Source of the DNA: a virus
DNA: 62,383 nt
IMG/VR virus record: IMGVR_UViG_3300030102_004440
Coordinates: 1-62,383 of that record
Reading direction: 5' to 3' (one strand)
Shown in pieces: positions 1 through 61,100 of this stretch. The notes under the pieces are model-generated. The model saw only the letters and a list, made by a program, of their open reading frames with translations, searched no databases and was not told the DNA's origin. Position numbers and translations under genes: made by a program. The first letter of the stretch is position 1; every line of letters starts with the position of its first letter.

Positions 1-1
1 A

Positions 2-286
2 GAGGCATACTTGCAGAGCGACGAGTACAAGGAGAAAGTAGCAAGGGAGAAGCAATTGCAGGAAGAGGAAGAGGAGCGGAAAGCCGAAGAAGAGCGAGAA
101 AAAAGACGGGCATGGAGAGAAAGCCCTGAGGGTCAACGAGCGATAGCGGCGAGAGAGGAGAGACAGAGGGCACTCAGAGAGGCTGAAGAGGAAAAGCAAC
201 GCAAGAGAGCAGAGGAAAGAGGCACAGTCGGGGTCAGGAAACCCAGCAGGAGAAAGTTTCGCACGGTAAGAGGCGGGCGACGATGA
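2..286 (+). CDS. Partial highly charged coiled-coil protein (3' end)
   Basis: The reading frame is open to the left edge, so the start lies outside the window; 94 codons are visible. Nearly all residues are Glu, Arg, Lys, Ala and Gln (runs such as EEEEERKAEEE), predicting one long charged helix or coiled coil, followed by a basic tail rich in Arg, Lys and Gly. The basic end could bind nucleic acid or acidic protein surfaces. No family is recognised. It ends just before the only sizeable intergenic region, so it may close the preceding operon. An internal TTG at 11 is a possible start, but the frame continues upstream of it. Confidence 0.6.
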   Translation, partial: EAYLQSDEYKEKVAREKQLQEEEEERKAEEEREKRRAWRESPEGQRAIAAREERQRALREAEEEKQRKRAEERGTVGVRKPSRRKFRTVRGGRR

Positions 287-458
287 ACCCCTTCGACTTG
301 ATTCCGATTATTCTTAATAAACATCTATACATATAAATAAATATAACTATATGTATAGACAATACATTAGAATCTTTAGACATTACAGGTCGGCTTTCTG
401 GTCACAACCCTTATGATGGCACCCTATGTGCCAGATACGAGGTCAGAGGTGATTGATA
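287..458 (+). promoter_or_regulatory. AT-rich intergenic region, likely promoter/operator of the structural operon
   Basis: This is the only gene-free stretch of more than about 60 bases outside very short leaders. The part from 301 to 360 is strikingly AT-rich against a roughly 53% GC background, with TATA-like stretches around 311-345. It holds a perfect 12-bp inverted repeat (324-335 against 348-359). A ribosome site GAGGTGA at 446-452 sits 6 nt before the ATG at 459. No comparable region follows for the next 58 kb, so this is the best candidate for the main promoter. That role is inferred. Confidence 0.55.
324..359. repeat. 12-bp perfect inverted repeat with 12-nt loop
   Basis: TCTATACATATA at 324-335 is the exact reverse complement of TATATGTATAGA at 348-359. 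The arms are AT-rich and no T-run follows, so an intrinsic terminator is less likely than an operator or a promoter-overlapping binding site. A dimeric regulator would suit it; the AbrB-like protein at 2093 is one possible local candidate, without direct evidence. Confidence 0.6.
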
Positions 459-1055
459 ATGAACGAAGGCTCACAAGATATGAAGATGACAGGGCTAATA
501 CTAGCCCAATCTGCGCTAGTCGGAGTGGCTGTTGGTGTCTACGACGCTGGCATTTGGCTACCGAACGGCTCCTCTGGAGACTCTTGGGTAAATGGAATGA
601 CATACTCCATGGGGGCATTGGCTGTACAGACAATAGCGTATTACTTCTTCAAGATGTTCTTCGAGCAGCAGATGCAAGAGAGAGTGCGAATGGCTGAGAT
701 GCAGAACCAAAGAACGAGAACGATAAGGGAGCAGCAACTTGGATTCGACCAGAGGAGAATGGATTTGGAGATGAGGTTGCAAGAGGCCCAGTTGGAGAAC
801 GAACTCCGATGGATGGCTGAGAATCCAGACAAGGTGTCCCCTTCATTCAATGGTGGTAGTTTCTCAGGTCTAGCGACTGACTACCATAGCAACTTCAACC
901 CCGGCATACCATCTCATCAGGCAACAGAGGCTCAACCCTTGGAACTTGGATTGAACAAGATGGCTGACAACCTGCTGAAAGAAGAAGATGACATCCCTAG
1001 GAAGAAGGATGGGTCGCCAGACTTAAGGTACAAGGCCAAGCGTGGCGGTAATTGA
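459..1055 (+). CDS. Membrane protein with C-terminal coiled coil
   Basis: 198 residues, family not recognised. Two hydrophobic segments are visible, about residues 10-28 and 43-63 (the latter YSMGALAVQTIAYYFFKMFF). A strongly charged helical stretch follows (about 66-130, rich in Gln, Arg and Glu) and then a polar tail. The likely topology is a hairpin in the membrane with the coiled coil on one side. The ATG at 459 is chosen over an in-frame TTG at 453 because GAGGTGA at 446-452 is spaced correctly only for 459. It is the first gene after the promoter-like region and is followed by another membrane protein and a GTPase, suggesting a membrane-associated complex. Confidence 0.7.
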   Translation: MNEGSQDMKMTGLILAQSALVGVAVGVYDAGIWLPNGSSGDSWVNGMTYSMGALAVQTIAYYFFKMFFEQQMQERVRMAEMQNQRTRTIREQQLGFDQRRMDLEMRLQEAQLENELRWMAENPDKVSPSFNGGSFSGLATDYHSNFNPGIPSHQATEAQPLELGLNKMADNLLKEEDDIPRKKDGSPDLRYKAKRGGN

Positions 1056-1354: not shown

Positions 1355-1365
1355 GGTGATAGCCC

Positions 1366-2082: not shown

Positions 2083-2092
2083 AAGTGACCTC

Positions 2093-2314: not shown

Positions 2315-2320
2315 GCGGTG

Positions 2321-4978: not shown

Positions 4979-5376
4979 TGGTCAGAACTGTAGACCTCAT
5001 GCAGGTCTCCCATCCGGGTTTCCGTTTACTTCAAACCGATAACATCGACGTGCATGATGAACTTCCCCTTTTCATGGAATACTGCGTCATAGTGTGCAAG
5101 AGATTCAAGTTCTATGCCAATAGAAACCACAAGCATGTCACTATGATGTGCCTCACTGATGTTCTTGCTGCACTTGACAAGATGTCTGAGACGGACGAGC
5201 CGAGTGAGATACTCCCTCTCAGGCAAGAAATCAAGGAGTCAGCGACTAAGTTCAGAGACCTGTGCGAGGACATGGCTAGTTGCATAGTGAACGAGTCAGT
5301 CGCTGCTGACTTCTACATAAGATTAGGACACAAGACCTTCGATTACTGCTTGGAATACGCTGGAGTTGATGATTGA
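4975..5376 (+). CDS. Unknown small helical protein
   Basis: 133 residues, family unknown. The ATG at 4975 overlaps the upstream stop (ATGA) and GGAGGG lies about 10 nt before it; an upstream in-frame GTG at 4924 lies wholly inside the previous gene and is less likely. The sequence is acidic and mostly helical (for example LTDVLAALDKMSETDE, ILPLRQEIKESATKFRDLC), with four Cys but no tidy zinc pattern. It overlaps the next gene by one base. Confidence 0.6.
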   Translation: MMVRTVDLMQVSHPGFRLLQTDNIDVHDELPLFMEYCVIVCKRFKFYANRNHKHVTMMCLTDVLAALDKMSETDEPSEILPLRQEIKESATKFRDLCEDMASCIVNESVAADFYIRLGHKTFDYCLEYAGVDD

Positions 5377-7220
5377 TGCCATCGGGAACAGGCGGCATGG
5401 GCACTGGTAGCGATACCAGAATCTACAATCCACGAAGCGAATCCTCGCACATGTACGTCAATAACAACGAAGAGGACCGCCACGGTGCTCAGGATGGCAA
5501 GGACAAAGACGACAAGATGGACAAGAAGAGGGAGAAGGACAGAGCCCGAAAGCGCCTCATGAGCAAAATCAAGCACATCAAGGTCAGAGCAAGCGACCTA
5601 GAAGGCTTTAGGGATGAAGAGGAGGAAGGCGAGGATGATGCTGACAAGAGAGACCAAGAGCGAGAGATATCCGCACAGACTGGGCCACCCGGCAATCTAG
5701 GTTTCCTAACTAGTCTAGCAAACCAAGCCAAGGGTCCCGGTGCCGCTGGTGGAGAGATGTTCGCCATGGGAGAGCCGATGGAAGAGGCTTGGTCTGATAT
5801 TCTCAAAGTAGCCCCAAGAAGAAGCGGTGGAGGAAAAAGCAGCAGAGCGCCTCCTAGAACAATGAGATTCGGCAAGGTCAGGCAGCAGAGACCAGCACCA
5901 AAGCCACGGAACATCAGTGCTCCTACGGAGCAACAGCAAGCAAAACCAGTACCATTCAACCCCAATGACCTACCGGTAGCCCCGGAAGAGCCAGTCATCG
6001 GTGACCCGACCATGCCGTATGGAAAGCCGATGATACCCGGAGACGCTAGGATGGACATGAATCCAAACATGCCACCTCAACAACCCAACAGGAAAGAAGT
6101 ATCTGATGAGCAACGTGAGAGGCTCATGCGTCAGATACGCGAGATGGAGCAGAACATACATCCCACGATGGACAGGCCCGGCTCAATCGACATACCGCCG
6201 GAAGAGCGAGACAAGTATCTGACTATGCAGGGCTACTATCCCGAAGTCAGAACCGGAGAACCCATGCTCGACGCTTGGTCTGAGATACTCAAATCGAAGA
6301 AGTCCAAGAAGAACGAAAGGAAGGCGAAGAAGGAGCAGAGGAAGAAGTGGAGGCCATCCACTGGAATGTTCAAGAAGCCACCCGGAGGATTCGACATATC
6401 AGGCGCTACCAACAGGAGAGCCAAGGCGAGAATGAGGGGAATCAAGGGTGGCAAGAGGACTGGACTCGGAAGAGCGCACCTGTCAGTGGAGATGGGACAC
6501 CGCACAGTAGGCAGGAACAAGCAGCCCACCTCCAAGGACGTAGGGAGATACAGGCAGTACCTAGGTCAGCAGGAGGCTCAGAGGAGGCTCGGCAACATCA
6601 GGTCGCCGACATCGATACCTCAGAGGTTCGGAGCACGGTCATTCAGGGCAGGTGCAACTGGAGGAGGCGCTCTCAGGCAACTGCCCGGACAAGCGGCACT
6701 CGCTAGGAGACCAGCGATAAGGAGACCCACTCGCCCTAGGATGATACCAGCGAGGGGAGTCAGGAGACCCGTCATGCCTAGAGCACCCTCAATGCCAGTG
6801 ACCCCATCACCCCAATACAGGTCGGGGTACTCCAATCAGAGCATGGTGAGCGGGGCACAGTACGCTCCCAGCAGAATGCCATCCGCATCCATGCAAGGTG
6901 GCCCATCCATGGTCATGACCAGCGAACTGGGCGAGGGCAGCGACTTGCAGAAGAGAGGCATGTCGTACTACGACACGTCCGAACTGAGACAACTAATCAA
7001 CGAAGCGCGCCAAGCGCTCAAGAGGAAGGAAAGCAAGAAGAAGGGAATGGGCAGCAAGGACACTGGCGGCGCAGGTAGCAACCTACCGAGACACAACAAC
7101 GCCCCAACCAAGGAGACCACCAATCCGACGGGGGCAACAGAGGATGCCAATAACGACCCTAGGACTTTCGGCGTGAATCCCCTTGACCACTTGACAGGCA
7201 AGGGAGGCAGGACACCTTGA
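5376..7220 (+). CDS. Large disordered basic protein with duplicated GEPMxxAWSxILK motif
   Basis: 614 residues, unrecognised. The N terminus is highly charged (Asp/Lys/Glu/Arg). The body is rich in Pro, Arg, Gly and Gln with little predicted fold. The short motif GEPMEEAWSDILK (132-144) recurs as GEPMLDAWSEILK (294-306), each followed by a basic patch, suggesting two copies of a docking peptide. From about 305 the protein becomes very basic (KSKKSKKNERKAKKEQRKK, then many Arg/Gly/Pro), which suits DNA or RNA binding. It may be an internal head or scaffold-type protein. The ATG at 5376 overlaps the upstream stop; TTG at 5373 is less likely. Confidence 0.55.
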   Translation: MPSGTGGMGTGSDTRIYNPRSESSHMYVNNNEEDRHGAQDGKDKDDKMDKKREKDRARKRLMSKIKHIKVRASDLEGFRDEEEEGEDDADKRDQEREISAQTGPPGNLGFLTSLANQAKGPGAAGGEMFAMGEPMEEAWSDILKVAPRRSGGGKSSRAPPRTMRFGKVRQQRPAPKPRNISAPTEQQQAKPVPFNPNDLPVAPEEPVIGDPTMPYGKPMIPGDARMDMNPNMPPQQPNRKEVSDEQRERLMRQIREMEQNIHPTMDRPGSIDIPPEERDKYLTMQGYYPEVRTGEPMLDAWSEILKSKKSKKNERKAKKEQRKKWRPSTGMFKKPPGGFDISGATNRRAKARMRGIKGGKRTGLGRAHLSVEMGHRTVGRNKQPTSKDVGRYRQYLGQQEAQRRLGNIRSPTSIPQRFGARSFRAGATGGGALRQLPGQAALARRPAIRRPTRPRMIPARGVRRPVMPRAPSMPVTPSPQYRSGYSNQSMVSGAQYAPSRMPSASMQGGPSMVMTSELGEGSDLQKRGMSYYDTSELRQLINEARQALKRKESKKKGMGSKDTGGAGSNLPRHNNAPTKETTNPTGATEDANNDPRTFGVNPLDHLTGKGGRTP

Positions 7221-9622: not shown

Positions 9623-10263
9623 GCAGGATACTCGTCAAGCAATCCACTCCGCAAATGGCTGCTACCATGGGTTCGGGAGGGCCGGGAATATCCTTCCTGC
9701 TAGGAGGTGGTAGCATGATGACGCCACAACAATTGGAAGACGCCGGATTCGGAGAGATAGGCAGTCCCAGTCATGACTTCGCGATGGACAACCAGCGTAG
9801 AGGTCATATGCTGAGATACGGGTTAGCCGGACTGGGCGCTTTCAATTCAGCGTACAATCAGACATCCAGCGGTCAGCCGGGTGTCATCGGTGCTGCCGGT
9901 CAAGGCGCGGTATCAGGATACTACGGCTCACAGGGATTGGAAGACTTTGCAGCGAGAGCAGGAAGAATGTTCGGTGGTAGAAATCTGTCTACCGGCGTGC
10001 CAGTCAACACAACAGCGCTAGTCCCCACGAAGGTAGCATCCCCAACTCAAAAAGAACCGATAGACGTTGAGTTCACCGAGGAGGAGCATGATGACGAACA
10101 GAGGCTACTTGCACCACCGACCGCTAATATGACCAGCAGCCCGATAGACGCGGCGATGGGTAATATCAGAGGTAGGAGAATGTATGACAGAATGGGCGAG
10201 GAGTTCGGCAATACCAGTGGTCGTAGAATGTACGATACCATGGGAAGGGAGTACGGACAATGA
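9619..10263 (+). CDS. Unknown Gly-rich protein with C-terminal GRRMYD repeats
   Basis: 214 residues, unrecognised. A Gly/Ala/Gln-rich N-terminal region (SGGPGISFLLGGGSMM, then LGAFNSAYNQTSSGQPG) is followed by an acidic segment (DVEFTEEEHDDEQ). Two C-terminal copies of a short repeat occur: GRRMYDRMGEEFG (10171-10209) and GRRMYDTMGREYG (10219-10257). The arrangement resembles an assembly protein with peptide hooks at its tail. It overlaps both neighbours by 4 bp (ATGA), so it is translationally coupled to terminase. Confidence 0.5.
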   Translation: MSRILVKQSTPQMAATMGSGGPGISFLLGGGSMMTPQQLEDAGFGEIGSPSHDFAMDNQRRGHMLRYGLAGLGAFNSAYNQTSSGQPGVIGAAGQGAVSGYYGSQGLEDFAARAGRMFGGRNLSTGVPVNTTALVPTKVASPTQKEPIDVEFTEEEHDDEQRLLAPPTANMTSSPIDAAMGNIRGRRMYDRMGEEFGNTSGRRMYDTMGREYGQ

Positions 10264-11735
10264 AGACGAACGAGGAGATGCAGGAGTTCATCCTGAACAC
10301 GGACAAGGAGATGTGCAGGAAGTCATTCAAGTATTTCTTCGTCGACATCCTCGGTTTCATGTACAACCACCACCACGAGTCTTGGAAGGAGGGGCTTGAG
10401 GAATCGCAGTACTACTGCGTCAAAGCGTCCCGTGACCACGGCAAGTCCGTCTTCTTCATGACATACGCACTGTGGCTCGCCGCATTCACGCCGAACAAGC
10501 ACGTCATGATTTTCTCCCACTCCCTTGAGCAGACGCTTGAGCACATGAGATTCATACGCAACCTGATTCAGGAGAACGACGTCCTCAGAGACCTCAAGCC
10601 GCAGGGCAAACCTTGGGCGAAGTCCTACTTCGAGTTCTCCAACGGCAGTCGTATGATGGCCAAGTCGGTAGGCGGTGCTACTCGTGGTTTCCACCCCGAC
10701 GTGGTTGTGTGCGATGACATCCTATGGGGGACTACTGCAACCGAACTGGCGAAGACGGCAGACTGGTTCTACGGTGTCCTGCTCCCAGTACTCCACCACA
10801 GCAGCAAACTGATGATGGTCGGCACGCCATTCTCGTACAACGACCTGTACGCTGAACTTGAGCAGAAGGAGACGTTCAGGGTCGAGACCTACCCGGCAAT
10901 CAACGCAGACGGAATCGCCCTTTGGCCTGAGAGGTGGAACAAGGAGGCACTGGACGAGAGGAGAATGTCCATGCCAGCGATACAATTCACACGCGAGTAC
11001 CTATGCGAGCCTATCCACGACGTAGCGAGCATGTTCCCGATGAACATACTTGAGGCTGCGAGGGACACCAACCTCGTACTGCTCGACAGGGCCGAGACCA
11101 ACTACAACGAGGAGGGAGAGGCGGATGGCGTGTTCGGACAGCACTTCATCGGCCATGACCCAGCCATAGCATCGGACAAGAACGCCGACTTCACGGCCAT
11201 GACGGTGATGAGAATCAAACCCGACGAGGACAGGAAGGAGATAGTGCACGTCGTTCACGAGAGGGGGATGTCGTCCATGGCGCAGAAGCGCATGATGGTC
11301 ATGCTCAACAACAAGTTCGTCCCCGAACTCATAGAACTTGAGGGGAACAACTTCCAAAGAATGCTAGAGCAGGAGATGCGGGAGATGTCCGCCGACATGC
11401 CAATCCGCGTGTTCATGACGACTAGAACGAGGAAGGAATCCCTGTTTATGTCGCTTCTACTGGCTTTCGAGCAGGGCAATATAAAAACCCCGTACGGGGA
11501 CGAACGCAGCAAGAAGTACACGCATCTGCTTGAGCAGGAACTCAACAGGTTCGGTATGCAGAAGAATGGAAAACTGGAGAGTGTTGGTGTGCATGACGAC
11601 TTGGCGATGAGTCTAGCGTTGGCGAACTGGGCCTCCAAGGAGTTCAAGGGAAGCGTGGTACTGCTCGATGACTACATGCCCGGATTCGACTCTTGGGTCA
11701 GCGGCGGAAGCAAGGGGAACTGGATGATACCATGA
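10260..11735 (+). CDS. terL: Terminase large subunit (packaging ATPase/nuclease)
   Basis: 491 residues, normal for the family. It drives DNA into the prohead and cuts it. The ATPase half shows a P-loop-like SRDHGKS (57-63, Lys62), Walker B VVVCDD (148-153) and a coupling motif MMVGTP. The RNase H-like nuclease half has the expected acidic residues: Asp300 in FIGHDPA, Glu359/Glu361 in ELEGNN and Asp446/Asp447 in VHDD. All key residues look intact. It overlaps the upstream gene by 4 bp, and a LAGLIDADG-domain protein and the portal follow. The P-loop is a variant without the usual first Gly, which is common in terminases. Confidence 0.93.
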   Translation: MKTNEEMQEFILNTDKEMCRKSFKYFFVDILGFMYNHHHESWKEGLEESQYYCVKASRDHGKSVFFMTYALWLAAFTPNKHVMIFSHSLEQTLEHMRFIRNLIQENDVLRDLKPQGKPWAKSYFEFSNGSRMMAKSVGGATRGFHPDVVVCDDILWGTTATELAKTADWFYGVLLPVLHHSSKLMMVGTPFSYNDLYAELEQKETFRVETYPAINADGIALWPERWNKEALDERRMSMPAIQFTREYLCEPIHDVASMFPMNILEAARDTNLVLLDRAETNYNEEGEADGVFGQHFIGHDPAIASDKNADFTAMTVMRIKPDEDRKEIVHVVHERGMSSMAQKRMMVMLNNKFVPELIELEGNNFQRMLEQEMREMSADMPIRVFMTTRTRKESLFMSLLLAFEQGNIKTPYGDERSKKYTHLLEQELNRFGMQKNGKLESVGVHDDLAMSLALANWASKEFKGSVVLLDDYMPGFDSWVSGGSKGNWMIP

Positions 11736-11792: not shown

Positions 11793-12935
11793 ATGAGCGC
11801 CTTCCCTGCGAACGGAGAGGGTTGGTTCGAGACCAACCTAGGGTACTCAGCCACTGATTTGGTCAAGAGGCTGAAGAACGTCAGGAGGCACAACAAGGAG
11901 GAGAAGGACTTCATAGACAAGGCAATCTCAGACATAAGGTCGTTGAAGGCCATGGAGATGGAGGCCACCCTGAAGATGCACGACTGGTGCATCAAGCACT
12001 CGGACACAATCAGGGACATCGGCGTCAGCGACAAGGACATGACTGCCTTGAGGAAGTTCGGCGACAGCAGGAAGATAAGTCTGCAAAGGGCATGCCACCA
12101 ATGGGAGAAGGCGGAAGAGACGCTGAAGATGCTCAGTGAGTACGAGGACGTTTGGGGAGACGAGCAGAAGAAGTCTTGGGTAGAGGCGATGCAATCGAAG
12201 AGGGACGCTAGGAAGATATGGAAGAGCACCCTGAAGCAGATGGACAGACTCACCGACAAGGAGCAGGACTCGATAAACAAGTGCTCCGAACTACTCCAAG
12301 AGAAAGGGGAGATGGCTGGTAGAACCATTCACGAGGAACTCATGCAGAGGGGTGTGCTACACAAGAGCATGACCTCCAACAAACTATCCAAACTACTGTC
12401 GATGTACGGGGAGGAGGTGGATATCGTCAGCGGCAACAGCCGTGGCACATTCGTCAAGATGGACAAGACGGGACTCATCATCAAAGACCCTTGGGCCTAC
12501 GCAGCCGGATTCCTAGATGCGGATGGGTACGTCACCATCACGAAGAGGGGAGAGCCGAGAGCGGGCTTCATCGCAACCGGAAGCAGAGGCAGGATTCACT
12601 GCGAGCAGTTGCAGAAGACCCTAGGATGCGGCGTCCTGCAACTCGACCAAAAGATATACAGCGACACGCAGAGGAGTCAGCACCGCTTGCAGTTCTACTC
12701 GAAGGCCGACATCTCGAAACTCCTGAAGGGGGTTCTACCGTTCTTGGAGATGAAGAAGACACAGGCCAAGGCAGTATTGGCATTCATATCGGAAGATGAT
12801 TCCTTGCGTAAGAACGAGTTGCAGAAAGTAGTGAGATACTTTAATTGGAGCGATGATACCAAGAAGGCCACCGCCCTCCTAGATGAGTGGGGCGTACAGG
12901 CTGACGACGTGGCAAAGTGGGCAGAGGCGATATAA
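11793..12935 (+). CDS. Helical/winged-helix protein with C-terminal LAGLIDADG domain
   Basis: 380 residues from the ATG at 11793, which has GGAGAGG 8 nt upstream; an earlier ATG at 11760 has no ribosome site. Residues 1-180 are long charged helices. Residues about 185-228 look winged-helix-like (RGVLHKSMTSNKLSKLLSMYG). Then a single LAGLIDADG motif, AAGFLDADGY (about 237-246) with its acidic residue kept, starts a beta-rich domain to about 340. One motif implies a homodimer. Family knowledge points to homing endonucleases, but the N-terminal fusion and position between terminase and portal suggest a domesticated DNA-recognition or packaging role, possibly small terminase. Intein splicing motifs are not seen. 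The domain call is strong; the role is open. Confidence 0.8.
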   Translation: MSAFPANGEGWFETNLGYSATDLVKRLKNVRRHNKEEKDFIDKAISDIRSLKAMEMEATLKMHDWCIKHSDTIRDIGVSDKDMTALRKFGDSRKISLQRACHQWEKAEETLKMLSEYEDVWGDEQKKSWVEAMQSKRDARKIWKSTLKQMDRLTDKEQDSINKCSELLQEKGEMAGRTIHEELMQRGVLHKSMTSNKLSKLLSMYGEEVDIVSGNSRGTFVKMDKTGLIIKDPWAYAAGFLDADGYVTITKRGEPRAGFIATGSRGRIHCEQLQKTLGCGVLQLDQKIYSDTQRSQHRLQFYSKADISKLLKGVLPFLEMKKTQAKAVLAFISEDDSLRKNELQKVVRYFNWSDDTKKATALLDEWGVQADDVAKWAEAI

Positions 12936-45800: not shown

Positions 45801-48800
45801 CGCCCCTCTCGACACATCGTACGAGTTGCATGACAGGACTCTGTTCTTCCATGTGACCAAGATGGGGCACAGCCACACCCATCGATACCCAACCGTGTAC
45901 ACGCATGCGCTTGGTGTGAGGAACTACTCCGGGAACGTATCGTCATGGGATGCCACCAATGGCAACCTCAAGATGAACTCGTCTGTAAAGAACAACCCCG
46001 TGTTCGACAACAACATCACTGTCTCCGCCGGTGATGAAATACTGAACTACTCAGGCTTCGGCACGAAGGAGGTCAGTGACAACAGACGCTTCATCAGGAT
46101 GTACGACACCATCACCGAGGAAGGCGTGGTGATGTCATACACCAGCACAGGCACATCAGGTGCGGAGCAGAACTGGTTCAAGGGCGTGACCGGCGATATC
46201 GAACTAGCCGACTTCCTATCGAAGTACTTCACGTTGAACGACACTAGCGGCGAGTACGAGCCTAACGCCACGGTCAAGGTAGTACCATCGTACTACGTAC
46301 CTGCTGGCAGCACGCGATTCTTCGCTGCAAGGAGGATGCGCGACCACGCAGAGGTCAGCGGCAACTCACCCGACATGGCGGAGACTCTGTACTTCAATGG
46401 GGACACAGTTGCGTACAACGCATACAGCAGACCCAAACTGACACCAATGCCATTCCCAAGAATGGGGCATCACTTCGTCACACCGACCATGCCCATGCTA
46501 CCGGGACACTGGGCACATCCAGCATACCAGTCGCTATACGAGAGGCATCTCCTAGACTACGGGATGCAGACAGGATTCAGGGACACCGCATTCTTCGACG
46601 ACCTAAAGACTCAGACCAACAAGAAGGCGAACATAACCAACCTCGCAGACAACATCAACCCGCTAGAGCCTGAGATAAACTTCAGTGCGATAAACGCTGC
46701 ACCAAGTGGCCCAAGCGACATACACGGAGGCGCATTCTCACTGATGTTCGAGACTGGCATCAGATACGATGGGTATGGTGTGCTGGCTTCCAGTGGTACG
46801 AATGCGGGTGACATAAACAAACTAGGCGGACACAGTGTGGTGCTTGAGGCAGCAGGGAACTACACACTAGGCAGACACTTCCCTGACCCAGTTGAGGTAG
46901 GTGCATATCAGATAGTGATACAACCCAACGTGTTCGACAACCAACTAGTAGGGTATCACAACAGTGGCAAACTAACCAGTCAACAGATAAACACAGTCAT
47001 CGCGATAAAGGAGGATGCCACGAAGGGTGGCTTGACACTAGTACTGGCGAAGGAAGTGGGTGCTGATGTCAGGGGATGCGAGGTATTCGTCAATGAGGTA
47101 ATGCTAGACATAAATCCCGACCCCGGTAGCCAATTCACAAATATACCCACATTGATGTCGTACAACCCATTAGGAGTGCAATTGACGGAAAGCCCCTCAT
47201 TTACACGCAGGGGATTCCCATACTCGGTAATGATGAGTGACGCTACCCCCGGATATACCTTGAATATACCTTGGTGGAGCATACTGCATAAGGAAGACCC
47301 ATCAGGTAATTCGAATGCATTTTTGAAAATGTCTCAATATACACCTCACGATTATTATCATATATGTAGAAATACATTTGGAAGTATAGGAAAACAGTTG
47401 ACAATTAATGGATATACTTCTGCATATATAGATATATACTCAGGTAATATGCAAACTACCAGTATAATACCTAAAAGTACCGTAATTAGTTTCGATTCTA
47501 GCGCAGGTAGGATACAAGTGGACAACGCTAATCTATTCCCGCTGAAAAATTACTATTCCGAGGTAATTGAATATACTGCTAAAAACGGCAATAAGTACTC
47601 TAAACCGCTTCTAAGCCGCAGTGGAAGCACTTTTGACATAAACAAGGGCGATTACCTGACAGTCGCTGGAGGTAGTGATGCATTTTGGACGAACCTATTC
47701 GATGGAGCGGTTCTTAGAATGTCCAGCGCATTCAACAACATACCCACTGGTACTATAATTACAGATAAGAGAAAGAGCATATTCGCAAACATACTCGATG
47801 ATGTCATATCAGGCAACGATGACACCAACTCAGGATACGTACCTGATGCATTCCTATGCATGTGGCATCATAATCTAGGTAGACCTAACACATACTTCTC
47901 GGATAGTAGAACCACATTCGGAGGCAATGCGGTAGACAAGAAGCCATACAACAGCCTACCTGAGCACTTTGAGACCATACATTACCACGATTTCTCATAT
48001 GCGATAAGCAACGGCCCATTCGATTTCCTAATTAAGACGCCTAGCGTCCTTCTCAAAGACGGAACAGCAGTGGCTGGTGATAGCACTCACGACGCTGGTG
48101 GCACTAACGTCATGCTAGCAGGATACTGGCCATGCGGTAGCCGTGGCGGTGCACAGGCCAGCGATTTGGGGTACTACTCCATGGTTGGTGCTACATGGAA
48201 CACGCATCTCACATCACAGAGAGCCAACTTCGCCTCCAGTGCGCAATACGAGTTCGTAGACAATGACGATGACGGCATATACAGAGGTAGCAGTGCTCCC
48301 GGAGACAGCACAGACATCATAGGTTTGGTCATAGGTAGCACCGCAGCAACCAAGAGAAGAGCGTACGGTCACCGTTTTGGTGTACTGCAAGCCACTAACA
48401 GACCACGGTACGGTCTTTCTCCAGCCCGTATGGTCTACGAGAACACGGCTAACATAGAGGGTAAGAACACCACGGATGCGGATAGTGGGCCACTAGTGCA
48501 GATGGAGTCCACGGACTGGGAGTGGGGTGGCAACGGAACGAGCAGCAGCACGTTCCCCGTCACGTACGTCGGTGTGATGGAGAGGCAGACGAACTTCGCT
48601 GGCATGCTAGGGCACGACAAGCAGGAGATGCAAGTCAGGTACAGCGATGGTCGTAGGATGACTAGGCCGTTCGGTACGCCCGTACGGACGATACGCAACC
48701 CCAGTGCAGTCAGGAGGGACTGGTGGGGTGACGTCAACGGGCTAGGTATCACGAGCCTGTCCATAGCCTCGCAGCACTACTTGGTGGACTGGTGGGGCAA

Positions 48801-50367
48801 CGAGCGTGGGGAGGACGTGAGGCGTGCTCCAGTGCGTGGATTCGGCATACGCCCAGCATGGGACGCAGGTGATGCGTACGAGTATGACAGAAGGAACAAC
48901 AGAAGCCCATATCGCAGGATATGGAACGATGCCAAACCCATCTTCAACCTGAAGGGGCTAGTGAACTTCTCGAACGGCAACGTCAGCGTGACTGCTGGAT
49001 ACACCATACCACGCTTCGGTGGCACTGACAACGACGAGAACCTCAATGGCACTGACAATGACCTCGTGGACGTGTTCGCACCGACGCATGCCCTCAGAGT
49101 GGGGGACATGGGCAACGGCAGGGGAATCAGATACCCCACCATGATGAACGAGGACGTGCTCACAGCACTCTCAGAGCCAATACACAAGACGGGCATCGTA
49201 CTGAGCCACAACACGGCAGAGCCTCTCTTCGGTGATGGTCTGCTCAGGCCGAGGGACGACACGCTGCAAAAGGACGAGGTGAAACGAGGCATAAGCGCTA
49301 GGATGGGCATAGACGACAAGGGACTCCTCAAACTGGATGCAGTCGTGAGCGATAGAGTGGAGAAGGTAGTAGGCGACACGCCACACAAGTCAGCCATATC
49401 CCGCACCAGTCCTAGGATAGGTCTCGATGCGGAGATAAGCGAAGACAGGGAGCAGAGCCACATAGTCATCAACACCGAGGCACACAGCCTACACACTGAC
49501 AGGAACGTGGGTCAGAGGGTCACGCTGCTAGGAGCATCGAACCTGCTGTCGGGAGCATCCACACTGAGCGATGCTGGATACACGTCAATATCCTTCGCAA
49601 GGCAAGCCGGAGGCTCGCCAATCAACAGCGTGCACAAGTACTCGCACACCAACATTTTCAGGCCGTACGGAGGCTCTTACATGCTTGAGTCACTCAACTA
49701 CGCTGGTGTCTTCGATGACACCGGCTGGGGGCTTTCCAACCTGACTGGCAGTGCCAACACGAGCAACCCGTACCAAGATGCGACCTTCACGAGCAACACG
49801 GTGAAGAACAACGAGACCGATTCGCTGGTACGCTTCCTGCTCAGACCGATACGCCTACTGGATGCGAAGCACGTCGAGGTGTTCAGACCGCACGACTCAT
49901 TGCACTCATCATCACCGCAGTACGCTCAGAACTACCTGAGAGCGACATCGGGAGGCAAGTACGGGATGTTCACCTACGAGACTCCGGGAGGCAGAACCAC
50001 GATAGACAACCTGCCCACTGGAAGAAGCGTGCCTGACGGCAATGGCCCATACATACCGATATTCGCGAAGTGGGACTCTGCACTGCAAATCCCCGACAGC
50101 AAAGGCCCTACGCTACCCGGCACGGAGGTGACAGGCTACGACAGCAGCAGCCTCCTATCCACCATAACGACAGCGATAGTATCGGACAACACGCTCCAGC
50201 ACCACCGTTCGGATGCTCCAAGGAGGAGACAGGCGCAAGACACGGACGAGGAAGCGCTACGCATGGACTACACCGTCAAGGCTAGGTTCAGCCAAGCGCT
50301 ACATGGCAAGGGACACAAGGGGGACGTGCAGTTCAGCGTCTCAGACCACAGCGGAGATGGTGCGTGA
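33814..50367 (+). CDS. Giant 5517-residue tail-tip/virion protein with N-terminal LamG-like domain
   Basis: One frame of 16.5 kb, intact throughout. Residues about 60-228 form a LamG/concanavalin-like jelly roll (MTFEAWVMPDCGGTIMEKEG, LHVVATVRPKSIDLYING, SNTYVGGKGGDFRGVMEAIH). Beta-rich phage modules follow, including NTDFTSIGAADNNVGTVFTS (codons about 35836-35895), a widespread phage domain. Helix-strand units such as NAAEEVVRLINQHAALNA and NGEELATVVGAAINAFPG recur. No enzyme motif is recognised. It follows the distal tail gene and precedes a hub-like gene, so it likely builds a large tail tip or host-contact structure. The LamG domain suggests glycan binding. A patch near 47281-47520 is only 32% GC. 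It is among the longest viral proteins I would expect. Confidence 0.75.
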   Translation: MTAIGKTNHAFFFDGVSDSILIPEGAFSAIGKKTSEGGSDVSRMLSDKNSDPSRSVIGANYPFMTFEAWVMPDCGGTIMEKEGQFKLSIGNVDTPGPAKFRVTLHNNGIRESHEISTANEVSAGNRYDGTVFPRSTFGGIHDSYNRFDTGNYGLVTDLNRNHRELLHVVATVRPKSIDLYINGALMAQKRFDATLGLVQSNSNTYVGGKGGDFRGVMEAIHISAGFRNTMANNNCPLVGDDTILLYRFEEPIAPIEKEYTFTTLTGGYDTNTLSTMTVTTADAKELAKTLTGNTVTTGTVDLTASPYSSGSYEIYDGTTGANISRTVAHVPYNLLINPGSIDRKTRKPNATPPERVRLHSIDVDTGVLTISSIHLDHNVDTNGGLVGVINKTRTTDVDDYFVVIGADLLIDNKSGKVYQPPHYNTQIIDRTGQMVIDESGYDNHGFVFSSRMATTATDSNNPYAVVWPLEDSDGWKIGHSGRHIGNHVDGHSFLTILPRASDEIVNQRGNGRAEIIDLVYDEMQDGVDQQIAINSQIDIYRDFDQLEISRITNTGTVTSAINSYQNTNSPPAGKRELIAIGGDRFDFTPFLLKGPAPTLQTKYENDLRTHHLRPSSKSRVALLHVPELKTTTVKFAPYVEIHYNAIDLTGESMHTTTNAGSFVSGQQYVIVSAGNTDFTSIGAADNNVGTVFTSTGVGSGTGTARRYQPLLMVEKTVPAGNVPTGGGSYVYDAIVASLASGKTLYSAGGVIDAVTGDAILATPHSMIGDNSEGYEADFALDDSLTPSKYTPRAISTSVNSTPSVIRESSSTTGTHESVFNRMTMDKILGGTTLTDKGIFNRVEPETVVSSPSAGEFDTGIPHVSSHIHEVFDIIDNIEVVDNVSNVRLIVQPSDRRRTNQLSSLKSLVEDTAPVNLMTPMYLLSRARVRAVKESEGENASLTTIECIGLAESAITRSVSLTGSGSPDSHVVKEIEPNAPVVTVTLGGPGQGAMDTAPVNQRSVLAHESYSTRRAYAVTATRLDIDFVAGSGTLHIEPLNNKSTSLSSWGTYGFPKVGRIYLPDGTSAKYSSKTGSTFVFSSAAVGSGDFVSGRGREFTTITELLNSAGYMEGSVSGTTATVYGNFTIMSEPDFGSNSDLENGTTVNDRMHQSLNDVSHDYQLGTQFASTRALAEIPVFSKQFFHNNVGPDNAFKIHVDATHTAHTYNPSPVGRRMKDVEPADREAQSAYAYAISQNKHVKSATLQKWDDSTRQLTVSDPKVFPSAATTSGRIAGVNQNRYRRVFTAEGEWGWYANDPAGDGYIELVNLDYNVSQNFISSLKEGISLFVGGPVVENATPMASDDLTPSSDFESRGEFYHDAASVKTQGGNVDYGLRQYVSAVEFKAGPESNPHAARVETGRARGTVQAQTEENIAVDLNEKVLIVTLSEEDFNKFPDLGYDTLAAAPTEQGQLLYVVEHEDNGTIYKYHYHGHLKNIRTDVDIPKTSIVLGFYEFAVTYPNSLEGKEIYLARKSRKAIQDLNVGTTANPIYNQGNSAQYSSALYDEVLGSTHKVGTTTTVSGSTITVTTAAGKSLNDLHGGNLKKGDYIYFHTTGGSFSGTIFPIGTVSDVATVNTSGEQVVTVTGRSNLTPGAGTYDVRVSMGDYIDRDAVLNATWLNPYAPGGLRNGDTIWANMSYNNPHAVEGLFAKSRGVYDESQVWQEFNGGMAQVDDNPRDSVPMENFLIGNTCLETARNYVQHVNRTIEENYTALGISTNKAPTIAYIDPYLSTEDHARVLLYDVRNDREFVAFQDIHMQVQSSPQATQLGWPKEVVEEGEDTSNPLHSINAKYNGAGPSPWTTQIDVANGFPSQNPYIRSTQQSKFIEGAYAHDLANRHTSDLIDSTTIANLSVALPTDGRVIAGSRLYGKAHGHHVHTGYSYGGIVDGYKSGNSTTPRTKDEVVLYEKAEKLHSLSRIQTTEADFFIGKLIDWRNTPTDGLTRTMRDPSTFFDTPDGTRVIPAFLCLRGIRSETLDLSSHELTYLDKRPQWTNMDFVRRLTIDMGEVALRDGVTNVQNAAEEVVRLINQHAALNARTGGGSAHDPHPFWDYEVGKNDKGTHMGYIRAHIGREVEDLNGDRGFTIVIHSTVPGASGRNFCAWLDNSKGQTAYQPQFLIGHGGRWRNFWALPEESEGENMHPAPMPLNKHGRPFAPVTTLQQYISTQNTGEDVTSVADFDDSNLLRAVSESLSGNSNNTASLESLDVKGSTSSLVKGLRTGTRAMSRINFGGLVAAGIPGWSPIAGRYGMGKKGNSSSNNRYGTPSLSDYSSHIPASQVTSDSIGTQPIYGFRLRNNVGNESGVRLIYRRMGDSIANENTVLPNTIEDEVCIFFDDRSVADGGFTIGAHMHGSGDATGRSTMTAGTTHGWFGNEWRGVPAPSIVTSMTTTYDSTNSALTVTAVESPMPQFNNATDKNNQLSYLGFPKENGVFQASVHTGDVGKVYSYSKRVGNVFYGVTPTIASGTYLMSPVINWTCVLTDEVIAAATAAAINATSDEINSEEGLSFDCTNMYATDGRTFSEWGIKPDSIRIRAFNPNSNVKPLSDDYTATLQRDLGIKAAHLEFGELEGAHEPTGEGTRPDWFFGLNSLSITDADIDAGKSIDCGYIPYNLLEIRTIGRGPRANTATPILVDSQNTPVDTRTWMENLKGMRFTRSYGDHILPKIDNPMGQFATSVNTQTSWNNRLLVVSTVTEGGGLLIPKGTSAQSVGEKKKIFLREDISAMATWSNSSTLVLDEKSQSQNWPTTMPTNDFIFSLFADPKRAREFAGLRSLGSVMSEPIVYFRGGKSGDDHSVPLFFGGGFSGVVMDVNDGTQNDYSSFYTHPYANGPMGVAGLQNANEISTSHAILDANAMFAFFPGAALCNQHRGSITPPAFNKDNVLSPDLDKGATTYSNPAGNNDLTHNLIKAKAVPLVLRFAHQTARYEDHVDGVDIDSKTTYLIFGPGQAFPFMKETTTAGAVNYSHSSTGNGSNTIEPYPGRVVKVGNHWASPPPPMDTALYFTPPNNTLYNARAGFHWRAMVNWESPAGYANKGKLAQRPAHGRHYGQQFNDDTPTSASDLSLMFPRSHTPTIGFGITMAADTVFHMDGGFHPGGHWMDNQITFNPPHPNKATRIKGAANAGGSNQGVQPHWEAANQVHPTAFRASGVMTGRIIDYLAGIDLGGQGGNQADTVSVTDAKMEYIVVDGTRCQNGEELATVVGAAINAFPGAGALKAMGGTHMPSMGNAMRQDRYAWVDIGAVATYDVSSTAGYNILSGTADGNGTTFTQAYLEQIPASGWLRLYKDDGGSEDYAWTPYHSREVLKDSSNWKVKFYMSPNRLKGVSKAENSSTFTANSFPTIDSSYDIYVWTKAGTMRFNNENATSRDHMCQVHFSGIADAIDRTRPIGSVGWHGERYSYLNSLKITTSVTKNSVTTNSTGYAAGLGAYHPMLAFSPYGTAGTVVGLHSHVPVVTSMFGSPESTPSIDGIGNNLGTHMKKTNFYTKYNHITGSGGGWDTYTYNFNDTDETGNANQWADPSNYAGTLPEELTRPQGLYSHAFVVVSYDAESTLICKRDNDGIEGTGDWLHVHGQSSDPIQYAGTTRWDERIHGEDRFVAPANAGPNVEALIVDGTALPSGTLTNANWASTTFNATTGTGSYFHSAVTGSSGSEKDRKLKNAVPGLNKIGDLLFDLDHSVGSALLESDDAERNTAAHKYSTAHTTSYPTPYWLGDVNGFQMYEDSAVRNFSVENIVWKRMDGGNLSLPASNARGLGAVPWTTRISSNIAYTTGEKLLGNVRFTFETTNGAMLPVLQAQELSHPELVKKNPYTVNNVLMIPNEEVQFRSIRVIDDAGEIHKIEGGSPLGTVIRGFRPTTNRSIKGRAPAVANSGNTPNLKVMLPNPDSIPGNIVVRSGFDPLQAYQNETIGSGGMHHPDLGSSDTGHLFNNTVAGPRMSPTYEDHNWERIDPVTFDSQVGAWNNNAPLDTSYELHDRTLFFHVTKMGHSHTHRYPTVYTHALGVRNYSGNVSSWDATNGNLKMNSSVKNNPVFDNNITVSAGDEILNYSGFGTKEVSDNRRFIRMYDTITEEGVVMSYTSTGTSGAEQNWFKGVTGDIELADFLSKYFTLNDTSGEYEPNATVKVVPSYYVPAGSTRFFAARRMRDHAEVSGNSPDMAETLYFNGDTVAYNAYSRPKLTPMPFPRMGHHFVTPTMPMLPGHWAHPAYQSLYERHLLDYGMQTGFRDTAFFDDLKTQTNKKANITNLADNINPLEPEINFSAINAAPSGPSDIHGGAFSLMFETGIRYDGYGVLASSGTNAGDINKLGGHSVVLEAAGNYTLGRHFPDPVEVGAYQIVIQPNVFDNQLVGYHNSGKLTSQQINTVIAIKEDATKGGLTLVLAKEVGADVRGCEVFVNEVMLDINPDPGSQFTNIPTLMSYNPLGVQLTESPSFTRRGFPYSVMMSDATPGYTLNIPWWSILHKEDPSGNSNAFLKMSQYTPHDYYHICRNTFGSIGKQLTINGYTSAYIDIYSGNMQTTSIIPKSTVISFDSSAGRIQVDNANLFPLKNYYSEVIEYTAKNGNKYSKPLLSRSGSTFDINKGDYLTVAGGSDAFWTNLFDGAVLRMSSAFNNIPTGTIITDKRKSIFANILDDVISGNDDTNSGYVPDAFLCMWHHNLGRPNTYFSDSRTTFGGNAVDKKPYNSLPEHFETIHYHDFSYAISNGPFDFLIKTPSVLLKDGTAVAGDSTHDAGGTNVMLAGYWPCGSRGGAQASDLGYYSMVGATWNTHLTSQRANFASSAQYEFVDNDDDGIYRGSSAPGDSTDIIGLVIGSTAATKRRAYGHRFGVLQATNRPRYGLSPARMVYENTANIEGKNTTDADSGPLVQMESTDWEWGGNGTSSSTFPVTYVGVMERQTNFAGMLGHDKQEMQVRYSDGRRMTRPFGTPVRTIRNPSAVRRDWWGDVNGLGITSLSIASQHYLVDWWGNERGEDVRRAPVRGFGIRPAWDAGDAYEYDRRNNRSPYRRIWNDAKPIFNLKGLVNFSNGNVSVTAGYTIPRFGGTDNDENLNGTDNDLVDVFAPTHALRVGDMGNGRGIRYPTMMNEDVLTALSEPIHKTGIVLSHNTAEPLFGDGLLRPRDDTLQKDEVKRGISARMGIDDKGLLKLDAVVSDRVEKVVGDTPHKSAISRTSPRIGLDAEISEDREQSHIVINTEAHSLHTDRNVGQRVTLLGASNLLSGASTLSDAGYTSISFARQAGGSPINSVHKYSHTNIFRPYGGSYMLESLNYAGVFDDTGWGLSNLTGSANTSNPYQDATFTSNTVKNNETDSLVRFLLRPIRLLDAKHVEVFRPHDSLHSSSPQYAQNYLRATSGGKYGMFTYETPGGRTTIDNLPTGRSVPDGNGPYIPIFAKWDSALQIPDSKGPTLPGTEVTGYDSSSLLSTITTAIVSDNTLQHHRSDAPRRRQAQDTDEEALRMDYTVKARFSQALHGKGHKGDVQFSVSDHSGDGA
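47281..47520. other. AT-rich island inside the giant gene
   Basis: By hand count 76 of 240 bases are G or C (32%), against about 57% in a sampled line at 45001-45060. The codons change too: TAT, ATA, AAT and AAA dominate. The frame is intact and the product remains beta-rich. It may be a recombined segment. Confidence 0.6.
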
Positions 50368-57600: not shown

Positions 57601-58137
57601 GCAATCACCGATACGTATGTCGCAAATGACCTGACGATAAGCGGCGGTACGGTAGACAACTCCGTCATAGGAGGCTCTACTGCTGCCGCTGGTACATTCA
57701 CAGACCTGACGGCCAGCAACCTGAGCGTAGACTCGGTTGCAGTGCTCGACACCTCGACGAACACCGCTCAGTCATTCGTCGACGGGACTGGTTTCACCAT
57801 AGCGCAGTTCGCATTCGGCACTTACAGGACTGTCAAGTTCGTAGGGCACGTCGTCAATGACACCACACACGACACTGATGCGTTCGAGGTGCTCGTATCC
57901 TACAAGGGAGATGCTGGCCCTCGTGTGGACAGCACCAGCAACTTCGATGCGGATACGATGATAACCACCTACGCATACATGAGCAGCGGCACTGCGCTAG
58001 GTGGATTGAGCCTAGTAAAGGCAGACCCCGGTACTACCGGGACAGATACGCATATAGCCTTGCAGTTCACGAACAGCACTGGGAGCGACTTCACTGGCTC
58101 GTTTGCCGTGACTGCGACACAACTAATCAAGACATGA
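54610..58137 (+). CDS. Tail fibre protein 2
   Basis: 1175 residues, beta-rich and low in charged helices. It starts MAKVDFRTQDGLIVGDGNLQ, like fibre 3's MAEKDFRVKKGLQVDG, indicating a shared attachment motif. Modules include repeated AGDINADSIS/GSFTTLSAS-type units and the VDGATTSVSTTELEVEDALI module (about 57250-57470) shared with the other fibres. The C terminus (FGTYRTVKFVGHVV, then FEVLVSYKGDAG) resembles that of fibre 1. It likely forms a trimeric shaft with a receptor-binding tip. A strong GGAGGTGA precedes it. Confidence 0.7.
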   Translation: MAKVDFRTQDGLIVGDGNLQVLNPSGSGGSEAIVFAKEFNTHGSSTLTSSGLDIRGNTIAATADSGTANLDINITPKGTGAVVISKVDINGGTIDGVAINGTSATFTSLSLSDGNLTNAGDINADSISVDAAGTGLNIDFSGANTTKSLITLADNLADALNITEGSNSYMKFTTTDGSDEADSGLITFSKDTTFASTNIHNLGTVSAATSITSTAFVGPIDGIVGGNTPAAGSFTTLSASSTSTLVGTVTLGDGSNPGVIASAAGKNLSLLPGDASGTDANGGRVTIQGGAGTGTGTGGFIKFELAPPASSTGTSSNAHVEAFTLQATTAGANPTATFTGETTAPTFATSNTTAGLTISNNKISADGSQSNIHITLEPKGTTGEVDVKAALDMNDLNIKHVDTMFVLNIDANQVGSGSTDKINLGRTDNVTIGGTALADDSIALQVNGGANATLNNVGQTGGADADYTEVRLHVGVTETELANATHPKDLVALVLQNSESTASQGSKGIIFDRVATNPGTTNDGSTWGIGNTQDDIKRFVIGFAGRKSGYDYQTKGTTDSPLNDTRVADAQPLYVMDEGGNHYIQLGTHIGGSATAGNLNIINGASSATAPNTMIQITNTGELRFYETGDSLNAYIAIRAPTDLDGDTTNYTLTLPVNDGAANEVLTTDGSGNLSWAAASGGGIALTDLSVGSEGTPSGDGSLAYNSSTGVFTYTPPVDITGNAATVTVADESSDTTCFPLFATAATGSLAPKTGTNLAFNSSTGQLTQTGASSADVGLVLKNTAAPGAGSNVNGQILRFVTERDGSEAGTNNDDLGFIQWYGNDGVGNNQSFGQIKVRANAVASGSESGSLQFAVATTTSGGIENVMTITGGAAAASSTVTIAGNLVVDGATTSVSTTELEVEDALITVAKGNADLAGADGAGLEIECTGATNPSFTYQNTPDAFEANTHLNLNTGKTYKINDVSILSATTIASSVTSAAGLATVGTITTGVWNGTAITDTYVANDLTISGGTVDNSVIGGSTAAAGTFTDLTASNLSVDSVAVLDTSTNTAQSFVDGTGFTIAQFAFGTYRTVKFVGHVVNDTTHDTDAFEVLVSYKGDAGPRVDSTSNFDADTMITTYAYMSSGTALGGLSLVKADPGTTGTDTHIALQFTNSTGSDFTGSFAVTATQLIKT

Positions 58138-58162
58138 TGGATAGTGAAATTATGGTGACGAG

Positions 58163-61100
58163 ATGGCGGAGAAGGATTTCAGGGTAAAGAAGGGGCTGCA
58201 AGTAGACGGAACTGGAACATCCAGTATAGCGGGCAGTCTAGGAATAGGCACTACGAGTCCAACTGACTCACTAGCCGTAAGAGGCGGAATCAAGATAGGC
58301 GAGTTCAACGACACGGATGGAGCGGGTTATAGTGGTAGTGCCGCACCTAGTTCTGCTAACACAGGGACGGGTGCGGCAGACCCACAGTTAAGAGTCTCCG
58401 GTAGAGCATCAGACCAACCCGGTATCATACAGATGGCCTACTTCGATGCCAACAACTTCTTCGGTGCGACTACTGACTCTACCGCTAACTACACTCTAGG
58501 TAAGATTCAGTTCGCCATGAACGAGAACAGCCAAGAAGTCACCAATGTCGCTGAGATTCGCTCTACCAGCAGACAGGTAGACGTTTCTGATAGTGGTGAT
58601 GGGAAGTTCAAGGGTGATTTGCAGTTCCTAACATCCGATGGTAGCACTTCCGCAGCGTCTCTCACTACGAAGATGACAATCACTGAAGGTGGCAACGTAG
58701 GAATAGGTACTACGACCCCTGTATCGAGATTAGACTTGAACACGGGTGCTTTGTCGTTTGCTAACACCAACACCCAACTCAAACTGTCCGGTGGGTCGAA
58801 TGTTGATTTACAACTTGGTCACTGGGGTAATACTCACATTCTCATAGACACCGATGGGAACGACACAAGCAGATACTTCTCAGTAAGGCATGGCAATGCT
58901 ACGGCAGGGTCTGCAACGGAGCTGTTTAAGGTCACAGAAGCCGGAGAGACTTCGGTGACAGGGAACCTGACAGTAAGCGGTGACTTGACGATAAATGGCA
59001 CGACCACTACCATCGATACGACCAATTTGGCTATCGAAGACAACATCGTTGTCCTGAACAAGAACGTCACAGGGACGCCTGCTGATGTCGATGCAGGTAT
59101 CGAGATCGAGAGGGGAGATGAGACAAACGCCACGTTCCTTTGGGATGAAGGGGGAGACTACTGGGAAGCAGACGGGCCGGGAACTGGCAACAGTTTCATA
59201 GCAAAGAATGCAAATGGATACATCGCACTTGGGCCTCAGAACGGCACTTATGCTCACATCACCACAGATATGAGCAGGTTCTACTTCAACCGTGATTTAG
59301 TCATTGGTGAGAATGCAATCTCATCCTACAACGGTGACTTCGCTATCAGAAGAAATCAGACCACGGACGAGCAGATAACGATTGCCGACAACTCGATGAC
59401 CTTCACATCTGCTGGCAACGATGTTCTGACAATTGACGGAACTAACACCAGACTCGGAATAGGCACTACAAGTCCTACTGCTCAATTAGAGGTTGATGGA
59501 ACTATAAAAGTAGACCCAACTGGAACATACTCGGCAGTAGTAGCTGGTGGCAGTGATACATCTACGACAGCAGGTATAGTGTTTGATGGTGATGCTGATC
59601 TCTTCAGGGAGTCAAATGGCTATCTCAGAAGAATAATCGGTGCCAGTAGCAGCACGATCACAATCGGTCAAACAGGAACTTCGGTATGGAACACCATTGA
59701 CTTGATACCCGGACATAGTGGAAAGGTCAGAATATACTCTGATGACCCCTCCACTAACTCAAGTAATCTACTTACGCTAACAGCAGATGATGGGGTTGTA
59801 AATACTCTTCAGCTACAGGTTGGAAGTGGTGCGACAGTAAGCACAATCAACACCTCTTTCTCCGACAATGACACTTCCCTGATGACCTCCCAAGCAATCA
59901 AGGAGAAGATAGAGAGCTACAACTACATTACTTCTCAGATGACATTCGTTCTGGAGGATGACGATGGGACTGAGGTCTCTATATCAAACGCTGAAGAGAT
60001 TAAGTTCCACAGTGGAAATACGAGCATAGACATCAACTACTCTGATATATCTCCGGGTTCAGATGCAGACCCATTCGACTTGGATTTCAGAACGATACAC
60101 GCTCCTTATCTAAAGACAGGCGATGACAGAGACTTTGCTCCCAATGACTTAGCAAATGACATTAGAGAAATATCAGGAAGATTCTCAACAAAGACAGGGT
60201 TGGAAGATGGCTCTACTACTAACGCTTCTGATTATGTTGATGCTTTGGTATTGGACACATTCACAGGGCATACAGGTGGAGATGCAAACCTATTGGCATT
60301 CGCTAAGAACAGCACAAAAAGAATCTATCACTACCGAGCAGATCAAGATGATACGGATTGGGGGACAGCTTCCACTCTTGCATACATCAGTGATATCCCA
60401 ACAAACACCAACCAGCTGACAAATGGTGCAGGGTTCATTACTGCAACATTGACGACTGAACAGGTTCAAGATATCGTAGGAGCCATGTTTAGTAGCAATA
60501 CGGAGACTCGAATCTCAGCTACATACCAAGACGGTGACGGCACGATTGACCTCGTAGTAGATGACATGACAGCAGACACCAACACGCAGCTCAGCAATGA
60601 GCAGGTGCAGGATATCGTTGGTGCCATGGTCAGCAGCAACACGGAGACAAACATATCCGTGACCTATGATGACAGCAATGGTAAGCTAAACTTCGCATCT
60701 ACCGACACCAACACCACATACTCAGCTGGCAACGGCCTTGTCCTTAGTGGCACCACATTCAAGCTCAACGATCCAGTCAATCTGTCTCAGCTGACAGAGT
60801 CCACTGATGCGACTACAGACAAGATTCTGCTTTGGGATGAGTCTGCGAGCTTGTGGAAATACATGACGCTCGATGACCTTCAAGACTCCATCGACACTAC
60901 AGGAGGAAGCGGGACAACAATCAACAACAACGCAGACAACAGGATAATTACTGGTTCAGGGACTGCAAATACGCTAAATGCGGAAAGCACACTTACTTGG
61001 GATGGTAGCACACTGATAGTGAATGGAGGAACGGGAGATGCGGTATTATCACTAAGGGCAGATTCAGATAACTCAAACGAAAAAGACCAACCATACATAG

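Follow-up and report, generated by a model that had tools for sequence, protein, structure and literature searches.

Known systems of site avoidance

Two four-base palindromes, GATC and CTAG, are exactly absent from the HF1-group haloviruses (Druskaviridae; HF1, HF2, Serpecor1, Hardycor2; PMC7230728), and Hardycor1 is free of AGCT, CTAG, and TGCA. These are the known cases that most resemble the avoidance described here, which concerns GATC and AGCT in the IMG/VR virus record IMGVR_UViG_3300030102_004440. The stretch analysed, called the window, comprises the first 62383 of the 63303 bases of this record. Its genes and relatives mark it as the putative late (virion) module, or half, of the genome of a magrovirus, a tailed virus. 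The haloviruses are likewise tailed archaeal viruses, distantly related to magroviruses, with two four-base palindromes at zero and, in some, DNA methyltransferases. In contrast, their pair is GATC and CTAG (AGCT is absent only in HRTV-7), their methyltransferases are not linked to the return of a word, and no spacing rule is reported for them.

Site elimination is a general strategy of non-temperate viruses (Rusinov et al. 2018, PMC6286503). That survey, like the present case, shows orthodox Type II sites being lost, above all by non-temperate double-stranded DNA viruses, and lists GATC among them. Magroviruses differ in having up to seven palindromes at or near zero over ~100 kb, in the family-wide extent of the loss, and in its reversal in carriers of methyltransferases.

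Nitrososphaerota and Methanomicrobiales have persistent methyltransferases for GATC (N6-methyladenine, m6A) and AGCT (N4-methylcytosine, m4C) group-wide, all of them orphans (PMC10609329), and in a freshwater thaumarchaeon the modification of GATC and AGCT was measured at 96-98% of sites (PMC6329791). Both cases have the same motif pair across a whole group, to which subclades add GTAC, CGCG, and others. The archaeal enzymes, however, are host orphans of unknown function and without a known nuclease, whereas these marine archaeal viruses behave as if unmodified motifs were attacked and lethal. For Thermoplasmatota, to which Poseidoniales belong, the same survey gives no persistent system (PMC10609329). 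Among nucleases, the Type IIE enzymes EcoRII and NaeI need two sites (PMC4081073), and McrBC requires two spaced modified sites (PMC12707154). Tolerance of isolated sites and cutting of nearby pairs would create a repulsion between sites, as seen below in the viral sequences for GATC.

Word avoidance is not mentioned in the magrovirus literature searched. The avoidance itself is of a known kind; the magrovirus case is new and unusually clean, and the GATC spacing rule appears to be new within the literature searched. Marine Poseidoniales archaea, the probable hosts at the level of the virus family, are among the commonest uncultured archaea of the surface ocean. No description of their restriction defences was found in the literature searched, and their viruses would report the target motifs directly.

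Absence of GATC and AGCT in the window

Exact counts over positions 1-58919, valid for both strands, give 0 GATC and 0 AGCT, where the counts of tri- and dinucleotides in this region predict 234.0 and 204.7. The Poisson probability of such a zero is ~1e-102 for GATC and ~1e-89 for AGCT. The first AGCT lies at 58920 and the first GATC at 59104, exactly where an earlier reading of the letters without database searches (the sequence-only reading) had placed them, and its estimate of about 230 of each by chance compares with the computed 234 and 205. Other palindromic tetramers, which it had called common, are all present with 19-318 copies each, and the next-lowest, CGCG, stands at 0.52 of expected. 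Of the non-palindromic words, CCAG is likewise reduced here, to 0.55.

When synonymous codons are permuted with the protein sequences fixed (300 shuffles), GATC has a mean of 171 and a minimum of 134, and AGCT a mean of 232 and a minimum of 206. The strong deficit of these short palindromes is accounted for by neither composition nor protein sequence, and GATC and AGCT are at zero with the other palindromes present. Codon choice follows the same pattern and bears out its remarks. Glutamate before CTN is GAA in 59/59 cases, despite the dominance of GAG over GAA (789:297) in the window, and lysine before CTN is AAA in 36/36. Isoleucine after a codon ending in G is written ATA 223 times, ATT 41 times, and ATC 0 times, while ATC occurs 338 times elsewhere. 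Aspartate before C is GAC in 154/154 cases, and the codon AGC never stands directly before T.

Extent among magroviruses

Relatives were found with the major capsid protein of the window (23007-24179, plus strand), which gives 408 relatives in IMG/VR, mostly fragment contigs, with several of 92-116 kb. Among 80 loci defined by the capsid, 71 are without both words, 4 contain GATC alone, and 5 contain AGCT alone. Loci defined by the polymerase or chaperonin number 87 after a cellular locus (L327) is left out, and comprise 80 without both words, 5 with GATC only, and 2 with AGCT only. The avoidance holds at G+C contents of 0.35-0.58 and across dozens of different metagenomes, and is confined to exact palindromes. 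The absence of both words is a family trait of magroviruses.

Several long contigs have further words at zero or near zero. CTAG and GTAC are missing in this way from G011, G013, G015, and G031; ACGT from G011, G017, G022, G025, G031, and G039; CGCG from G011, G017, G030, G031, and G039; and TCGA from G011. All five words are textbook Type II targets. The suggestion that the absence could serve as a host fingerprint holds for the whole magrovirus group, with extra words specific to subclades, and not for a single host strain. Comparison of gene presence with the trait among relatives gave no convincing viral gene that tracks the CTAG/GTAC or ACGT trait. For the CGCG set, the sole matching family is a protein of 108-119 amino acids (aa) in 3 genomes, and chance could give the same match.

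Two other observations concern avoided words. In G012 (L113-L117) the non-palindromic words CCAG (31/201) and CTGG (53/232) are strongly depleted. G051 (L208; L207 is a similar contig), from a 160-kb virus record, has three neighbouring C5 methyltransferase genes, and the 20.8 kb examined are without the seven palindromes ACGT, AGCT, CGCG, CTAG, GATC, GTAC, and TCGA.

Return of AGCT with a C5 methyltransferase

A C5 methyltransferase of 261 aa (PF00145, 4e-45; dcm family) was first met in G032 (12367-13149), one of few contigs with AGCT. It has motifs I, IV (PCQ), VI (ENV), VIII (QxRxR), and X. A scan with this enzyme found four further magrovirus contigs with 92-96% identity, in which AGCT is near normal and GATC is zero (AGCT observed/expected: G044, 378/497; G046, 378/492; G045, 212/290; G043, 138/172). 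Across all five carriers, AGCT stands at 0.46-0.80 of expected, and the overall range of its return is 46-83%. The gene is inserted downstream of the chaperonin (thermosome), between a zinc-ribbon gene and a gene for a 96-aa protein, and the same site is empty in G014, G015, G034, G035, and L314. AGCT is present in 5/5 carriers and in 0/16 non-carriers that cover the locus (Fisher 4.9e-5, with lineages that are not fully independent). Between G032 and G044 the methyltransferase is 94% identical while the adjoining chaperonins share only 51%; the cassette has therefore passed from one lineage to another.

The target-recognition segment (RPEW..YYQWRRTYFRENKSGVCPCLTANMGTGGHN) is common to the carriers and to the viruses L170 and L171, in which AGCT is normal. 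The magroviruses G089 and G090 have C5 homologues with a different recognition segment, and their AGCT is zero. The perfect association and the shared segment suggest that the enzyme of the carriers recognises AGCT. AGCT sites in the carriers are randomly spaced. No deamination signature of 5-methylcytosine (m5C), that is, AGCT changed to AACT or AGTT, was found in excess over TGCA between G044 and G046. G003, with a capsid 94% identical to that of the window, has normal AGCT (115/138). It comes from the same metagenome as G043 and covers a complementary part of the genome map, and it may thus belong to a methyltransferase carrier.

G032 is a recombinant. Its initial 14 kb, where the methyltransferase lies, are rich in AGCT and similar to G043 (86-89%), and its next 40 kb are 91% identical to the AGCT-free G034. 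An alignment of 38.5 kb between G032 and G034 has 23 AGCT in the former, 0 in the latter, and GATC in neither. These 23 sites arose newly in a module once free of both words. The AGCT gain ratio is 0.42 of a simple single-substitution expectation; control palindromes have 0.36-0.99 and GATC has 0.00. The pressure is therefore word-specific and lifted for AGCT alone. Together, the methyltransferase insertions and G032 amount to a natural experiment that tells cause and correlation apart, as seldom happens in studies of restriction avoidance.

Return and spacing of GATC

In another lineage it is GATC that returns, to ~0.22-0.38 of expected, with AGCT at zero. Three of its contigs (G086, G096, and the 109-kb G097) have a beta-class N6 methyltransferase together with a phage Dam gene, with the domains N6_N4_Mtase and phage Dam (PF05869 and TIGR01712, the latter just below its curated cut-off); the complete member sampled from the lineage has both enzymes. 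The two adenine methyltransferases are putatively specific for GATC. Further GATC-bearing contigs of the lineage are fragments, and a search among other long magroviruses gave no member of the Dam family.

The returned GATC sites are evenly spaced in G086, G096, G097, G084, G085, G088, G009, G007, and G026 (loci L370, L372, L375, L377, L379, L404-L406, and L427-L445 of the relatives). The coefficient of variation (CV) of the gaps, ~1 for random sites, is 0.51 in G097 (119 sites), 0.46 in G096 and G086, 0.39 in G085 and G088, and 0.53 in G009, with p <1/5000 in each of these six; in G026 it is 0.64 (p 0.005). Control palindromes in the GATC-bearing genomes are randomly spaced, and none of the other partly depleted words is clearly evenly spaced. 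Among 66,077 word-by-locus spacing tests GATC alone recurs, with 12 hits, and the next word has 4. The pooled pair correlation of GATC is 0.20 of expectation below 50 base pairs (bp), 0.38 at 200-300 bp, 0.51 at 300-400 bp, and 0.79 at 400-500 bp, and reaches ~1 from 600 bp onward, so that pairs less than ~400 bp apart are 2-5 times rarer than by chance; CTAG in these genomes shows no such dip. The flanks of GATC are biased, with 0 TGATCA against 27 expected, and CGATCT and AGATCG are enriched. The marine virus G100, whose beta-class enzyme is 44% identical, has no GATC pair closer than 150 bp, and its overall gap CV of 0.88 is not significant.

Random thinning cannot yield even spacing, and an interaction between neighbouring sites is therefore needed. 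The mean gap minus the standard deviation gives an exclusion of ~310-680 bp, with the remainder near neutral supply. A crude simulation that takes the measured pair correlation as the interaction gives roughly the right density and less regular gaps (CV 0.6-0.8 against 0.46-0.53), so that the repulsion may have a stronger core or an extra penalty on long gaps. Selection against pairs with tolerance of isolated sites is a feature of two-site restriction, and the GATC pair correlation has this form. The almost even ladder of ~1 site per 0.6-1.1 kb across whole genomes, with pairs under ~400-500 bp selected against, could on an even balance be the imprint of a defence that acts on two nearby sites, either a cutter like Type IIE/IIF or a methyl-dependent two-site nuclease acting on GATC methylated by the virus. 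If this is true, the distance over which sites repel each other in viral genomes would offer a new ruler to detect and measure the two-site nucleases of uncultured hosts. A positive function of the spaced sites, such as marks for mismatch repair, was rejected. The conservation of GATC sites is inconsistent across distant pairs, being raised in two of them (ranks 2 and 8 of ~254) and ordinary elsewhere (35 and 53; 147 of 250), and exclusion suffices.

A small HARE-HTH-like protein (L404:11682-11948, with homologues in L370, L372, L375, and L379; E 2.6e-5, just below the curated cut-off) is present in GATC-bearing magroviruses and was not seen in GATC-free relatives. HARE-HTH is a domain type found in restriction enzymes. 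G094 has a methyltransferase of the D12 class (Dam family; L402:1483-2262) together with zero GATC, so the specificity of its D12 enzyme must differ from GATC; its GGCC is nearly absent (1/40).

Interpretation

A host defence that cleaves DNA with unmodified GATC and AGCT is the highly probable explanation, with the viruses escaping by total loss of sites or by a methyltransferase for one word, and with subclades purging further words. The nucleases would reside in the Poseidoniales host. The viruses would escape chiefly by having no site, and selection would weed out every new one, for the most part by exchanging synonymous codons. By the second route, once a virus carries a methyltransferase for one word, that word would reaccumulate at a near-neutral rate, with the other still at zero. 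Methylated AGCT would return freely; with GATC only partly protected, isolated sites would survive and close pairs would not, as for two-site nucleases. Additional enzymes faced by subclades would lead to the purging of CTAG, GTAC, ACGT, CGCG, or TCGA as well.

Several points weigh against this explanation. No host enzyme has been seen, as scans of genome contigs gave no Poseidoniales genome. In other archaea, methyltransferases for GATC and AGCT are usually orphans without a nuclease (PMC10609329). The AGCT-bearing G003 is a fragment without the methyltransferase, which is present only in the contig G043 of the same metagenome. The five carriers are not independent, with 97% identity between G044 and G045 and an early block common to G032 and G043.

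The sequence-only reading had attributed the loss to selection by restriction enzymes, of a host or borne by the virus. Selection by cleavage is strongly supported, with the return of exactly one word in close relatives where a methyltransferase is, or in fragments can be, present as independent evidence. A viral methylase as the cause is contradicted by the relatives, in which the methylase abolishes the avoidance instead. Two candidates of this kind were rejected: the N6_N4 methyltransferase as a general cause is absent in 43 records, and the D12 methyltransferase is absent in 26 records and occurs only in G094, where GATC stays at zero.

A nuclease encoded by the virus could cut GATC and AGCT in host DNA, with the virus protected by having no sites. 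The core genes of magroviruses include ERCC4-type and PD-(D/E)XK nucleases, the International Committee on Taxonomy of Viruses (ICTV) mentions restriction-enzyme-like nucleases in magroviruses (PMC12999244), and the gain of a methyltransferase would ease this pressure too. However, the avoided set varies among close lineages (CTAG, GTAC, ACGT, CGCG, TCGA), while the core nucleases are common to genomes with different avoided sets. The failure of any viral gene family to track the CTAG/GTAC pair also weakens this part of the sequence-only reading, and the CGCG match in 3 genomes could be chance. This origin of the pressure is thus unlikely.

Improbable to a similar degree is that the viruses avoid being methylated, because a host mark on GATC and AGCT is harmful through a methylation-dependent nuclease or disturbed gene control. 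Most of the GATC and AGCT methyltransferases characterised in archaea are orphans (PMC10609329), the Mrr nuclease of Haloferax attacks G(m6A)TC DNA (PMC7230728), and a methyl-dependent two-site nuclease would suit the spacing of GATC seen in methyltransferase carriers. In contrast, the C5 carriers tolerate AGCT in 5/5 cases. In its simple form this reading predicts the reverse, and it would hold only if m5C made by the virus prevented a harmful m4C mark by the host. An artefact of assembly, or a bias in mutation or composition, is hardly credible, since nothing but the somewhat low CGCG (0.52) was found for it, the zero survives codon shuffling, only exact palindromes are lost over G+C contents of 0.35 to 0.58 and dozens of metagenomes, and the reversals of one word at a time refute it.

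Gene map and end of the window

Both words resume in the last segment of the window (58920-62383), which has 8 GATC and 17 AGCT, roughly the neutral density, and a G+C content of 0.46 against 0.54 upstream of it. They resume inside a tail-fibre-like open reading frame (58163-62368, plus strand), whose fibre homologues in L314 and L317 are free of both. In the remaining record bases (62384-63303), a run of N starts at 62384, one base beyond the window end. The end of the window is likely a scaffold chimera or a recent exchange of the fibre with a virus free of this pressure.

The window has a late module of HK97 type with capsid, terminase, portal, and protease, and its gene content places it provisionally in Magrovirales. 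All the following genes are on the plus strand. The terminase large subunit lies at 10260-11735 (phrog_38, 2.6e-63; PF17289), the portal protein at 12917-14659 (phrog_18178, 1.1e-64; PF04860), and the prohead protease, a peptidase S78, at 21595-22974 (PF04586, 3.2e-9; phrog_23555, phrog_80). The SU10-like major capsid protein (phrog_24667, 2.6e-58; PF17236) follows at the position given above. A giant late protein of 5517 aa (33814-50367), taken from the list of open reading frames, has a 5515-aa counterpart in the core of relatives, and both GATC and AGCT are missing across the 16.5 kb of its gene. Complete relatives have genomes of the magrovirus type (~90-115 kb) with their own PolB, RFC-like clamp loader, ERCC4 nuclease, and group II chaperonin (thermosome), arranged in two opposed modules that match the literature description of Poseidoniales magroviruses. 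The record of the window stops short of the module with PolB, RFC, ERCC4, and chaperonin. The best named-virus matches of magrovirus PolB are haloviruses of the Druskaviridae type at 23% identity, consistent with the ICTV account.

A short recurrent peptide of the form AW..(I/L)LK, possibly a tag for capsid targeting, occurs in the window at 5373-7220 (residues 139 and 298). The peptide is also present in several open reading frames of G009, where it stands at protein N-termini (MSAFDLAWTLLK, MNAINFAWSILK).

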